A DNA stretch of 64,000 nucleotides from a virus: the IMG/VR virus record IMGVR_UViG_3300043775_003095, positions 1 through 64,000 of that record; one strand, written 5' to 3'. Numbering within the stretch: the stretch's first letter is position 1; each line of letters begins with the position of its first letter. The notes below the pieces were generated by a model. It was not told the DNA's origin. It was given only the letters and a program-made list of their open reading frames with translations, and ran no database searches. The position numbers and the translations under genes are program-made. Shown here in pieces: positions 42,995-47,708 of this stretch.

Positions 42995-43588
42995 TTAAAT
43001 ATCTGAAATGTTTGAGACTAGAGTAATTCTACCTTCTGCGCAATTATTCTTCGGCACAAAGTGCTCAATCCATGCATCGAATATTAATAACATTCCCTTT
43101 TTAGGAGGAATCGAGAATATCTTTGCATTATGCATGGTATGTCTTATGATTGGTTTGTTAATAAATCTATGATGTGGTCTAGAATCATCAAAGCATATTG
43201 GTGAAGATCCTTCGGGCGTTTGCAAATAAAATACACTTGAGTATGAACAGTTTGGGTGGAAGTGAGGCAGATGCTCGTCATCTTTTACCATTTCGCTCGC
43301 AAAGGTTGTGATTGATTTTATATTCATCAGATCATAACCCTTAATTCTGTTAAAGTTTTGAACATGATCGCATATAAAAGAATTATATAAACCAAATTCT
43401 TCTAAATTCCCAATACTTTTACTTGGGTCATAGTTGAATGTGCTTTTGTATTTGAAGATAGTAGATGCTGCGTACCTTTCGTCGCTGAGATATTTTTTCG
43501 CAAGTGGCAGCATCATATCTGCCAGTTCTACATCTTCCGCCACATACACTGATGTGGGGAAAAAATTTTCTATCTTCACATTACTCAC
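42995..43588 (-). CDS. Putative Fe(II)/2OG oxygenase (TIGR02466-like)
   Basis: 197 aa. The IENFFPTSVYVAED opening is the standard start of this phage/bacterial family (TIGR02466, PF13759). The core 'HLPHFHPNCSYSSVFYLQTP' gives the first His ligands, 'FDAWIEHFVPKNN' the distal His, and GRITLVSNI the 2OG-binding Arg. Substrate is unknown. It overlaps the gp33 stop by 4 nt. A similar layout is found in the cluster at 58586-64000. Confidence 0.82.
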   Translation of the reverse strand: MSNVKIENFFPTSVYVAEDVELADMMLPLAKKYLSDERYAASTIFKYKSTFNYDPSKSIGNLEEFGLYNSFICDHVQNFNRIKGYDLMNIKSITTFASEMVKDDEHLPHFHPNCSYSSVFYLQTPEGSSPICFDDSRPHHRFINKPIIRHTMHNAKIFSIPPKKGMLLIFDAWIEHFVPKNNCAEGRITLVSNISDI

Positions 43589-43810: not shown

Positions 43811-44833
43811 TTAGACCTCATATGCACTCAAGGAATTGTTCAATTGCTGAGTCACACGAACAAAAGTAGTTCGCTTGCTCAGTTCTTTCAATTCACTTGC
43901 CCCCACATAAGTACATGCCGAACGAAGTCCACCCAAAATATCTTGCATCGTAAGTTTCACCTCGCCACGATATGGAATCTCTACGGTCTTGCCTTCAGAT
44001 GCTCTGTAATTAGCAACACCACCATTATGTAAATCCATTGCAGTATCAGAACTCATGCCGTAGAATTTATTTCCACCAAGTGGTGATGCACCACCTTCCT
44101 TGTGACCTGCCAACATTCCACCAAGCATCACGAAATCGGCTCCCGCAGCAAATGCTTTCACTACGTCTCCAGGAACGGAACACCCTCCATCCGCTATGAT
44201 GTGACCCTTGAGACCATGAGCAGCATCAGCACACTCGATAACCGCACTCAACTGCGGGTAGCCGACGCCTGTCTTTTTGCGTGTAGTGCAAACAGAACCA
44301 GGACCAATACCAACCTTCACGATGTCAACACCTGCGAGAATTAGTTCTTCTGTCATTTCTGGTGTGACGACATTACCTGCCATCAATACAACATAAGGAT
44401 AACGGTCGCGGAAATGGCGAACGAAATTTACAAAGGCTTGTGTGTAACCATTCGCAACATCAATACAAACTCTCATGTATCGATTTCCAACGGTATTGTA
44501 TACATCATCGAATTTCTTTAAATCTTCACTGGAAGTGCCAAGAGAATAAATGGTGCTATCTAATCTTCGCGTAAAGTGACTAATTAATTCAGGCGCACCA
44601 TAATGTTTAGTCAAAGCAACCAAACAATTATGTTTGGCGAACTCTAAATCCATTTCGAAAGTACCAACACCATCCATGTTGGCAGCAATAATTGGAACAC
44701 CTTTCCAACTATTGCCACTTCTGAAAGTAAATGTTCTTTCTAGATTTACTTCGCTTCTTGAAGAAAGACTAGATCGTTTCGGAGTGATGAGGACATCTTT
44801 ATAGTCCAACTTAACGTCTTCAATGATTCTCAT
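43811..44833 (-). CDS. guaC: GMP reductase
   Basis: 340 aa (E. coli GuaC 347 aa). The IMPDH/GMPR barrel is clear: [18 protein letters not shown] at the start, [14 protein letters not shown], the active-site loop [20 protein letters not shown] with Cys182, '[20 protein letters not shown]', '[10 protein letters not shown]' and [10 protein letters not shown]. The [10 protein letters not shown] loop and absence of CBS domains indicate GMP reductase rather than IMP dehydrogenase. It converts GMP to IMP with NADPH, letting guanine from degraded host nucleic acid be turned into adenine nucleotides. This suits an AT-rich phage. Neighbours are gp33 and a cell-wall hydrolase. Confidence 0.93.
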
Positions 44834-44839
44834 AGAACC

Positions 44840-45481
44840 TCAATGATAAAATATATGATTGCCAATCTTGCGAATCAATTTCTTCTTTTCTGCCCAAGAA
44901 GGATCAACATAATCTGCGTGAAAATACTTTGCAGATCCAATTATACCATACTTCCTGTCTAAAATCAATATAGTCTCTGCAATTTGCAAGGACTCTTTCC
45001 ATGCCGCACGATTGATAATTGCTTTCTTGCCTTCACACACCCAAGAAAATTGGCAAGTACCTTTAGTCTTTTGATAGACGACACCACAAACAGAACGAGG
45101 GAATTGCTTGCTCTTGACGCGATTCATCGTCACTTCAGCAACTGCAATTTTACCAGCCCGTGGTTCGCCCTTTGCTTCGAAGTAAATGTTCTTCGCAAGG
45201 CAATCGACCTCTCGCATGACTTTTTGCTTTTCGTCATAACTGAGTTGCAAGAATTTCATCTCGCGAGACATATCATTGACTTGGGTAGCAAGATATGTAT
45301 TCTGAGTTTGATATGCTGACAGTTGAGCAGTCAGGGATGCTTCTTGTATTGCTAACATTCTGTATGGTATAAAGATTCCGAAAAATATTAGGCAGAATAA
45401 TCCACCCCACATACAGAACAAATTGTGATTGCGATCAAAATATTTTTCAACATTATGTAATATATCTACTGCATTCATGTT
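44840..45481 (-). CDS. SleB/CwlJ-type cell-wall hydrolase with N-terminal membrane anchor
   Basis: 213 aa from the ATG at 45481, which has GGAG 9 nt upstream. An ATG 12 nt earlier overlaps that site. Residues 15-45 contain a hydrophobic helix (LFCLIFFGIFIPYRMLAI), so the enzyme is anchored or exported in SAR-like fashion. A coiled segment follows, and then the Hydrolase_2 domain: CLAKNIYFEAKGEPRAGKIA with the catalytic Glu, AEVTMNRVKSKQFP, CQFSWVCEG and AKYFHADYVDP. It is likely the phage endolysin (lytic transglycosylase or amidase-like). No holin was recognised next to it. Confidence 0.85.
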   Translation of the reverse strand, partial: NMNAVDILHNVEKYFDRNHNLFCMWGGLFCLIFFGIFIPYRMLAIQEASLTAQLSAYQTQNTYLATQVNDMSREMKFLQLSYDEKQKVMREVDCLAKNIYFEAKGEPRAGKIAVAEVTMNRVKSKQFPRSVCGVVYQKTKGTCQFSWVCEGKKAIINRAAWKESLQIAETILILDRKYGIIGSAKYFHADYVDPSWAEKKKLIRKIGNHIFYH

Positions 45482-45509
45482 TCGAGTCTCCATTATTGCA
45501 GTGGAAAGA

Positions 45510-45981: not shown

Positions 45982-46140
45982 TTAGTCAATTAGAAACTGT
46001 GGTTTGGTTTGCTCATTCAACGACTTCTGCTGCTCCTCAAGATATCTCTTGTACTGCTCAGTTGTCATTGCATGCAAGCCAACGCAATAGCCAGTTGGAC
46101 TGCGTCCGCATGCGCATGGATATTGTTTCACTTCAGACAT
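45982..46140 (-). CDS. Small CxC/C/H metal-site protein
   Basis: 52 aa. The N-terminal motif CACGRSPTGYCVGLH (CxC-x7-C-x3-H) resembles a shortened CDGSH iron-sulfur site: Cys, Cys, Ser, Cys, Gly and His are kept in order, with one residue fewer before the third Cys. It is followed by a helix (TEQYKRYLEEQQKSL). Similar small proteins occur in aquatic phages. It may bind 2Fe-2S or zinc. The ATG is preceded by GGGAG 6 nt upstream. It is located directly after ahpD and rubredoxin in the same operon, which favours a redox function; that is inference. Confidence 0.7.
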   Translation of the reverse strand: MSEVKQYPCACGRSPTGYCVGLHAMTTEQYKRYLEEQQKSLNEQTKPQFLID

Positions 46141-46175: not shown

Positions 46176-46688
46176 TTAGCCAGCAAGAACTTTTGCGACT
46201 GAATTGACAACTGCAGCAATACGACCGACGTCGCGGAGTTGCTCAACTGTCATACCCTCTTTCTTGAGAGTATCATAGTGCGCCTTTACACAGAAGTGGC
46301 ATTTGCCTACGATTGAGGCAGCGAGAGAATATGCTTCAAAATTGACCTTTGAAGTGCCACCGTGATTAATAATTCCATTCATACGAAGTAATGCAGGCAA
46401 TCCTTTAAGCGCAGGATCATCAGCCATTTCAACGTATGGATACCAAACATTATTTTGAGCCATAATTGCAGCAGCAGTCAACGCAGCGTCCGCTTCCTTA
46501 CGGTCCTCGAACTCTGCGTCGATTGCTGTTGCTAATCGAGAATTACCTGCGGCAAATGCTGCTGCAAGTGCGCATCCTTGCGCAACCAATGGGTCAAGGG
46601 AACTGCGAAGTAACACTGCATCAAGATTCAACTTTGTATCTTTTGCGTAATCTGGTAGACCTTCTTTAACTACATTGACCCAATTCAT
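46176..46688 (-). CDS. ahpD: Alkylhydroperoxidase AhpD
   Basis: 170 aa. The carboxymuconolactone decarboxylase/AhpD fold ends with GKCHFCVKAHYDTLKKEGMT. Cys130, Cys133 and His137 plus Glu118 fall at the same numbering as the catalytic residues of M. tuberculosis AhpD; only the His at 132 is Phe. AhpD uses its CxxC to reduce the AhpC peroxiredoxin. The ATG overlaps the rubredoxin stop (ATGA), so the two are made together. In mycobacteria electrons come from lipoamide; here the coupled rubredoxin may be the donor. Function of the protein is well supported; the donor is a hypothesis. Confidence 0.93.
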   Translation of the reverse strand: MNWVNVVKEGLPDYAKDTKLNLDAVLLRSSLDPLVAQGCALAAAFAAGNSRLATAIDAEFEDRKEADAALTAAAIMAQNNVWYPYVEMADDPALKGLPALLRMNGIINHGGTSKVNFEAYSLAASIVGKCHFCVKAHYDTLKKEGMTVEQLRDVGRIAAVVNSVAKVLAG

Positions 46689-46837
46689 TCTTTTATCTCC
46701 TTCTCTTCAAACAAGTCTTTCTCTGAGCGACATTCTGGACATTCAAAGTCATCAGTTAAACTTTCCCAATCTCCATATCTACCGTCATACTTCCATCCGC
46801 AAATAATGCAAACATGATCGACTTGTTTGTTAGACAT
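46685..46837 (-). CDS. Rubredoxin
   Basis: 50 aa. It has two iron-binding knuckles, VCIICGWKYD and FECPECRSEKDLF, separated by the standard length with a W/L/DD pattern (GDWESLTDDFECP), as in classical rubredoxins. It binds one Fe in a Cys4 site and carries single electrons. The stop overlaps the ahpD start by 4 nt, and its ATG is 3 nt after the EF-hand gene's stop. A zinc-ribbon protein is the alternative, but the DDFECPEC pattern and the spacing favour rubredoxin. Confidence 0.88.
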   Translation of the reverse strand: MSNKQVDHVCIICGWKYDGRYGDWESLTDDFECPECRSEKDLFEEKEIKE

Positions 46838-46840
46838 AAA

Positions 46841-47089
46841 TTAAGCGTCCTTTGGTACTTCCATGCAGCGATCAAACAAATAACGTCTTGCTTGACGCAT
46901 TTCTGCATTTGTTAAAAAGCCATCACCATCCTTATCAGCACGATCAAAGAGACCCTTTGATACTGTGCAATAACGATTTACATCTTCAAATGAAACTTTG
47001 CCGTCCTTGTCAAAGTCATACTGAGCCACACGATCTTGAGCCATCGCTGGCGCAGATAACATCATCAATCCAATGATTAGTTTTTTCAT
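46841..47089 (-). CDS. Secreted EF-hand calcium-binding protein
   Basis: 82 aa. A clear signal peptide (MKKLIIGLMMLSAPAMA, cleavage before QDR) is followed by two EF-hand loops, DFDKDGKVSFED and DKDGDGFLTNAE, each with Asp/Asn at positions 1, 3 and 5 and Glu/Asp at 12. Two Cys (RYC and DRC) could form a disulfide. It would act in the periplasm or at the envelope, unlike its cytoplasmic redox neighbours. It could be a calcium sensor or an envelope-active factor; function unknown. It lies 15 nt downstream of ahpC. Confidence 0.85.
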   Translation of the reverse strand: MKKLIIGLMMLSAPAMAQDRVAQYDFDKDGKVSFEDVNRYCTVSKGLFDRADKDGDGFLTNAEMRQARRYLFDRCMEVPKDA

Positions 47090-47104
47090 TTAAGTTTCTT
47101 TCCT

Positions 47105-47689
47105 TTATTTTGAGAGAGTTGCTTCACCAACCTGACGATTGCACTGGCAAAGTTCACCCGTCTGCAAAGCATCGAGGATACGAAGTGTTTCCTCTGGATT
47201 GCGTCCGACGTTTAGATTATTCACAGTCACATGCTGAATGATATTGTCAGGATCGACAATGAATGTTGCACGAAGAGCAGCACCTGCTGGCTTGTAGAAT
47301 ACACCAAGTTGTTGAACCAGACTTTGTGTATCTTCGTCCCAAACATCTTCAAGGTCGCGTGCTGTATCAGCAAAGAACCAGCAAGTGGTTTTCTTTAGAT
47401 CTTCGTGAGCATTCTTCCATGCCAACTTACAGAACTCGTTGTCTGTTGAACCGATCAAAAGAACCGCATCGCGGTCAGCAAAGTCTGAATTCAACTTATC
47501 ATAGGCAACGATTTCTGTTGGGCAAACAAAGGTGAAGTCCTTTGGATAAAACACAACGACCTTCCACTTACCTTCAAAAGAAAGATCTGTAATCGTTTCA
47601 AAAGCATTATCTGGCGTCAATGCTCCTGGCTTGACACCAGTAACTGCGAAATTCTTTACCTTATCTCCAACTGTCTTCATTCTATTCAT
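47105..47689 (-). CDS. ahpC: AhpC-type peroxiredoxin
   Basis: 194 aa from the ATG at 47689 (GGAG 7 nt upstream). The peroxidatic Cys56 is in FYPKDFTFVCPTEIVAYDKL. A second Cys is in NEFCKLAW. The C-terminus has the CxC pair ELCQCNRQVG (Cys181, Cys183), the arrangement of mycobacterial AhpC (DELCACN), which is reduced by AhpD. It reduces H2O2 and organic peroxides. It heads an operon with EF-hand protein, rubredoxin and AhpD, so oxidant, reductant and probable donor are together. A tandem repeat precedes it (47709-47731). Confidence 0.95.
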   Translation of the reverse strand: MNRMKTVGDKVKNFAVTGVKPGALTPDNAFETITDLSFEGKWKVVVFYPKDFTFVCPTEIVAYDKLNSDFADRDAVLLIGSTDNEFCKLAWKNAHEDLKKTTCWFFADTARDLEDVWDEDTQSLVQQLGVFYKPAGAALRATFIVDPDNIIQHVTVNNLNVGRNPEETLRILDALQTGELCQCNRQVGEATLSK

Positions 47690-47708
47690 TTTCAAACTCC
47701 TGTATAAT

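Follow-up and report, generated by a model that had tools for sequence, protein, structure and literature searches.

A large set of uncultured tailed phages, absent from isolate records, carries a peroxide-removal system of apparent bacterial origin. The stretch of DNA analysed here (the window, positions 1 to 64,000 of a 72,961-base virus record in IMG/VR) encodes both of its proteins, AhpC and AhpD, with intact catalytic residues. We consider it likely that a Burkholderiales-type ahpCD operon was captured and has been kept under selection, with AhpC receiving electrons from AhpD and AhpD from the lipoyl-E2 and dihydrolipoamide dehydrogenase (Lpd) of the host. The pair is not peculiar to the window phage but is common to many uncultured phages.

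Layout of the cluster and identity of the phage

Five genes lie together (Table 1), transcribed in the order AhpC, EF-hand protein, rubredoxin (Rd), AhpD and 52-aa protein. The AhpD start lies inside the Rd stop, the TGA of Rd and the ATG of AhpD overlapping as ATGA. An in-frame TTG upstream, at 47695, is a second possible start of AhpC. A first-pass annotation had correctly located AhpC, Rd and AhpD, together with this overlap, the C-terminal CxC of an AhpD-dependent AhpC and the numbering of the four AhpD residues. It was also right to place Rd between AhpC and AhpD, but overlooked the EF-hand gene between AhpC and Rd and the shortness of Rd, and its gene set lacked the 52-aa gene that follows AhpD.

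Table 1. Genes of the ahp cluster in the window.
Feature	Position	Strand	Basis
AhpC, 2-Cys peroxiredoxin, 194 aa from ATG	47105-47689	minus	Pfam and solved-structure match
EF-hand protein, 82 aa, putative signal peptide, conserved Cys41 and Cys75	46841-47089	minus	PF00036
Short rubredoxin (Rd), 50 aa, CxxC-x19-CxxC	46685-46837	minus	PF00301, profile and fold
AhpD, 170 aa, Glu118, Cys130-His-Phe-Cys133, His137	46176-46688	minus	PF02627
52-aa protein, CxCGRSPxGxCxGxH motif	45982-46140	minus	motif also near ahpC/ahpD in other phages

Tail fibre, baseplate wedge, tail lysozyme, tail tube, gp32-like and PhoH-like proteins are encoded in the same window, and the phage, which is known from metagenomes only, is therefore T4-like. 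A second record of 172,991 bases (G051, fetched as locus L246) shows no difference from the window in any of the 8150 bases fetched. A near-identity search of the first 25 kb of the window against phage records returned no match. A promoter and terminator scan gave no decisive signal, with 13 promoter-like sites where 7.7 were expected. The five cluster proteins had no match in PADLOC and an anti-defence role of the cluster was dropped on that account. Adjoining the cluster on the minus strand are genes for a cell wall hydrolase (44840-45493) and an IMP dehydrogenase/GMP reductase family protein (43811-44833), and a putative 2OG-Fe(II) oxygenase (PF13759, 4.6e-17) is encoded at 42995-43588 on the same strand.

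Identity and conservation of AhpC and AhpD

AhpC matches the Pfam family AhpC-TSA (7e-23), and its best solved-structure match is 2bmx, 'alkyl hydroperoxidase C' (2.8e-40). It has the cysteines of an AhpD-dependent 2-Cys peroxiredoxin, namely a peroxidatic Cys54 in an FVCPTE motif and a C-terminal Cys179-x-Cys181. Conservation over 152 AhpC rows was 0.99 for Cys54 and 1.00 for both Cys179 and Cys181, and over 143 AhpD rows it was 1.00 for each of Glu118, Cys130, Cys133 and His137 (neither set was dereplicated and both include the window). AhpD scores above the PF02627 cut-off, with Glu118, CxxC and His137 in its CMD domain, and clears the TIGR00778 core-domain model; against TIGR00777 it reaches 128 bits (3e-37), which is below the cut-off of 191.95. 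A profile of the phage AhpDs gave three matches among solved sequences (PDB), all of them AhpD and the best being 1gu9. Residue 132 is Phe (CHFC) where solved AhpD has His. CHFC is present in 125 of the 143 viral AhpD rows; in the cellular set, 70 of 79 loci have it.

Median pairwise dN/dS was 0.106 for ahpC, 0.094 for ahpD, 0.118 for Rd and 0.203 for the EF-hand gene, as calculated from non-independent pairs with 0.1<dS<1.2 and with three rubrerythrin-linked rows of the GWVY kind still contained in the Rd set. With dN/dS of about 0.1, ahpC, ahpD and Rd are under purifying selection. Taken together, the profile E-values, the conservation and these ratios exclude chance matches.

Distribution among viral contigs and phage records

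IMG/VR viral contigs contained at least 597 relatives of AhpD and at least 599 of AhpC. The best 80 loci for each protein came from 144 distinct contigs, which are metagenomic and mostly fragments. AhpC was found upstream of AhpD on the same strand in all 62 AhpD-picked contigs having 2 kb of upstream sequence (18 of the best 80 were too short). In the reciprocal comparison, 50 AhpC-picked contigs extended 2 kb downstream; AhpD lay downstream of AhpC in 39 of them and was missing from 11 (a further 14 of 64 were too short). The proposal of a phage-encoded pair conserved in related phages is thus borne out. In 32 of the 101 pairs the two genes are separated by 30 bases or fewer. Of eight other window proteins, one or more recur at 80 of the 144 loci; the remaining 64 share none, and several phage groups must therefore be involved. 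Eight of 50 records encode a full-length gp23.

The isolate-phage collection (50,697 records) yielded no AhpD match at E<=1e-3, no EF-hand match and weak Rd matches in three records. AhpC-like matches occurred in 20 of its records; these too are viral AhpC, yet they are 27-51% identical and come with no AhpD match. Several of the 20 are very short or carry host-like genes, and we suspect that some are host DNA. The earlier description of phage peroxiredoxins as rare does not hold for AhpC in uncultured phages. Viruses of Microcystis blooms have a viral AhpC as the window phage does, ahpC being mentioned in the relevant passage of PMC12542629. No paper on an AhpC-AhpD pair in phages was found among the open-licence full texts searched.

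Cellular relatives and origin of the pair

The genome_contigs search was followed through the best 80 loci of 582 AhpD relatives. Their titles are nearly all from Burkholderiales, other betaproteobacteria or unspecified proteobacteria, with the exception of a Bacteroidota MAG contig (L161) and a Mycobacteriaceae MAG (L187). Within these best 80, Burkholderiales ahpCD are the nearest sequence relatives, with AhpD 47-61% identical. In 77 of the 80 loci ahpC is succeeded by ahpD on one strand; one has both genes in pieces and two have ahpD alone, one of these being cut at the contig end. Profiles of the phage-type Rd and EF-hand proteins matched at none of the 80 loci within the flanks fetched. 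Among 398 Pseudomonadota genomes, 32 had a match at E<=1e-20, seven scoring 230-241 bits and 25 scoring 98-142 bits, and because of this split the phage AhpD profile is considered close to a single cellular type. The ahpC-ahpD order is also present at each of the 20 Pseudomonadota loci that were fetched.

These relatives are consistent with capture of an operon of this type by the ancestor of a tailed-phage group that includes several T4-like members. In a midpoint-rooted AhpD tree with no outgroup the viral sequences fall on one side of a branch with SH-aLRT 98. With an outgroup this value is 77, and the Burkholderiales-type side of the rooted tree has a support of 0, so that a single capture and its direction are unproved and a single viral capture was not accepted as settled. 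The AhpD of the Bacteroidota contig L161 is up to 93% identical to viral AhpDs and belongs to a phage-type ahpC-ahpD pair. This contig is probably a mis-binned phage contig, judging by its sequence; it was treated as such and dropped from the reduced tree rows by similarity.

The rubredoxin and its company

Rd scores above the cut-off of PF00301 (1.1e-6, 29 bits) and its fold is predicted with a pLDDT of 83, the TM scores lying between 0.65 and 0.79 among the matches listed. By profile and predicted fold it is a rubredoxin with two CxxC knuckles. It is short, having 19 residues between the Cys pairs as against 29 in all eight rubredoxins from ahpCD-bearing bacterial genomes; the type-1 Rd cores (n=23) have 19 or 20, none reaching the canonical spacing of about 29. 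Zinc ribbons are abundant in phages, and the short loop and a Pfam score of only 29 bits would also suit a zinc-binding protein of structural or regulatory rather than redox function. Nevertheless, the best profile and fold matches are rubredoxins, and the aromatic positions are conserved, as is the CPxC...KDxFE end; the zinc reading is possible but somewhat unlikely.

The first-pass annotation had made Rd the electron donor of AhpD in a complete Rd-AhpD-AhpC chain. Such a chain would agree with the overlap of the Rd stop and AhpD start, with Rd and AhpD lying -1 to 19 bases apart in all but one of the 28 type-1 Rd contigs having AhpD (27 of 28), and with the purifying selection on Rd. A second, different Rd also stands 26 bases before AhpD in three contigs (L309, L311, L312), but the AhpD of these same contigs has CKHS, not CxxC. 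In the experiments described in the relevant part of PMC6626918, a CxxS form of Burkholderia thailandensis AhpD kept approximately 10% of activity.

The co-occurrence counts argue against such a donor. Rd is present in only 23 of the 144 contigs with AhpC and/or AhpD, and is missing beside AhpDs that are 95-97% identical to that of the window (L004-L008); for two of these relatives it is absent throughout the record, of 108 kb and 55 kb respectively. Pfam Rd was found in 6 of 50 records with AhpC and/or AhpD, every time at the ahp locus. The window-type Rd was collected from 42 contigs (not dereplicated, 18 distinct Rd cores). AhpC is upstream in 35 of the 35 that allow the check; full AhpD is downstream in 28 of the 42 and absent from 14, each of which extends 3.2 kb or more downstream. 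On the AhpD tree, Rd-AhpD adjacency needs six changes, five of them forced by well-supported branches. Conservation across related phages therefore extends to AhpC-AhpD and not to Rd with AhpD: Rd is an insertion carried by some of these phages, and it accompanies AhpC more faithfully than AhpD. Moreover, rubredoxins have redox potentials near 0 mV and dithiols near -270 mV. At these potentials Rd is too weak a reductant for the AhpD dithiol, the transfer being uphill and the reverse step downhill. On the counts and the potentials together, the donor role was rejected as the main reading and we regard it as highly improbable.

The company of AhpC raises the question of whether AhpC is the direct partner of Rd, or is recycled by Rd in place of AhpD, with AhpD dispensable in several lineages. 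The constant adjacency to AhpC would fit this, as would the spread of the 14 contigs lacking full AhpD over 7 of the 18 distinct Rd cores, of two kinds, with Rd 2 or 22 bases behind AhpC in 10 of the 14. In one of these contigs (L093) only the first 16 AhpD codons are left, whilst AhpC and Rd are still open and the C-terminal CxC of AhpC is kept. However, five AhpC-picked contigs without AhpD are also without Rd (L099-L102, L150), and host AhpD or thioredoxin could recycle AhpC; the link between AhpC and Rd is therefore a hint and not proof. The AhpD-less contigs are, in addition, fragments of 37 kb or less, and AhpD could thus lie elsewhere in those phages. We know of no peroxiredoxin that is reduced by a rubredoxin. 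A direct role of Rd at AhpC is accordingly a distinctly unlikely reading. It is just as much of a long shot that phages evolved an AhpC-rubredoxin peroxidase, in which a dedicated short Rd takes over recycling wholly or partly and AhpD has been deleted in several lineages. If true, electrons would here enter thiol peroxidase chemistry one at a time and by way of iron. The natural AhpC-Rd pairs without AhpD are a setting in which the ability of a rubredoxin to serve a peroxiredoxin can be examined.

Short rubredoxins also occur in a different setting. Of the 80 Rd loci collected with the Rd alignment, 43 have other short Rds, in which 20 or 23 residues separate the Cys pairs, and in 35 of those 43 a rubrerythrin-like gene (strict motif) lies directly upstream. 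PF02915 was found in all 22 rubrerythrin-Rd records tested, 19 of them without AhpD and three with the arrangement rubrerythrin-Rd-AhpD (L309, L311, L312). A rubrerythrin gene followed by a separate short Rd gene, i.e. a split rubrerythrin set, is seen in L274, L288, L290, L305, L309 and L312. Rubrerythrin and AhpD occur together in 3 of 85 records tested, and PF02915 is found in none of the 63 AhpC and/or AhpD records outside the rubrerythrin group (22 + 41), the window record and its 173-kb twin G051 included among those lacking it. Since possession of AhpC, AhpD or Rd was the criterion for choosing the records, most of which are fragments, this split between AhpC/AhpD and rubrerythrin is a description and not a test. 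It points to a second kind of peroxide removal, by rubrerythrin and rubredoxin, in other uncultured phages.

The window Rd might then derive from such a cassette and still serve a diiron enzyme, a reading favoured by the frequency of these cassettes and by L120, an AhpC-AhpD phage with an Rd of the cassette type. Against it, the absence of PF02915 from the 63 records is joined by that of a class I ribonucleotide reductase small chain from the seven window-clade records tested, and a diiron partner in the phage was set aside since neither PF02915 nor PF00268 was found in the window clade. Both Rd kinds are short, but the mean identity of the window-type Rd is 42.9% to rubrerythrin-linked Rd and 41.5% to bacterial Rd, which does not favour the cassette, and the tree has 46 columns only; derivation from it was not adopted and we judge this reading unlikely. 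The most likely role of Rd is that of an independent one-electron or iron accessory working with host partners, rather than that of AhpD donor.

Other neighbours of the pair

The EF-hand protein (PF00036, 2.5e-10) is encoded beside ahpC in 38 of the 144 viral contigs. Its N-terminus looks like a signal peptide, and it has a weak match to lanmodulin (3e-5) far below the cut-off. The motif of the 52-aa protein, CxCGRSPxGxCxGxH (three Cys, one His), is invariant and recurs in 42 of the 161 viral ahp sources and at 15 of the 80 Rd loci, and at none of the best 80 genome_contigs loci (counts not dereplicated, window copies included). We take this motif to resemble that of CDGSH-type iron-sulfur proteins. 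The searches returned no family near significance, no fold match and no relevant solved relative, and the CDGSH assignment was dropped for lack of such support. A further small CxxC-CxxC protein (WHFxCSKCxLWW...WYCPHCG; L031, 1662-1826, and relatives) is encoded between ahpC and ahpD or upstream in several phages, both Rd-less and Rd-bearing.

Electron route and comparison with known systems

During infection, Cys54 of the phage AhpC would reduce peroxides and then form a disulfide with Cys179/Cys181, which Cys130/Cys133 of AhpD would in turn reduce. The lipoyl-E2 (SucB/DlaT) and dihydrolipoamide dehydrogenase of the host would recharge AhpD from NADH, host thioredoxin may offer a second route to AhpC, and phage replication would be shielded from peroxide. 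We infer the electron source, timing, benefit and host, the first of these by analogy with two bacterial systems. B. thailandensis AhpC is described in the relevant part of PMC6626918 as acting via Cys57/171/173 and having two reductants, namely AhpD (together with SucB, Lpd and NADH) and TrxC; the M. tuberculosis chain is given in the corresponding part of PMC12028322 as NADH-Lpd-DlaT-AhpD-AhpC. On these precedents the phage AhpC is most likely recycled by the phage AhpD together with host lipoyl-E2 and Lpd. A phage thioredoxin as the recycler was rejected, being present in 2 of 24 records only; the thioredoxin family had no match in nine of ten window-clade records, including the 173-kb G051, the tenth (G003) having two. 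In PMC5931967 a host ahpC is tabulated among the genes that go up when cyanophages infect, consistent with a need to remove peroxide. The chemistry is ordinary and its carrier unusual, and a testable question is opened, namely whether phage replication in such hosts is truly limited by peroxide.

Of the known phage systems, that of rubrerythrin followed by a short Rd differs from the window record in its PF02915 protein. The T4-like Pelagibacter phage Mosig EXVC030M (MT647606) has a putative rubrerythrin gene beside that for a ssDNA-binding protein, and has no AhpC, AhpD or Rd annotated within the 6.4 kb shown. Among cellular systems, the AhpC and AhpD of M. tuberculosis (2bmx, 1gu9) are the best solved-structure matches and share the positions of the catalytic residues; they differ in that the phage AhpD has Phe132 for His and that the phage AhpC, aligned with 2bmx, shows an 11-residue insertion. 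B. thailandensis AhpC (BTH_I2092) and AhpD (BTH_I2091) have the same gene order as the phage and, as described in the relevant part of PMC6626918, the AhpC likewise has one N-terminal and two C-terminal Cys and the AhpD a CxxC. Compared with Burkholderiales ahpCD, part of the phages have added Rd, the EF-hand gene and the gene of the CxCGRSPxGxCxGxH protein.
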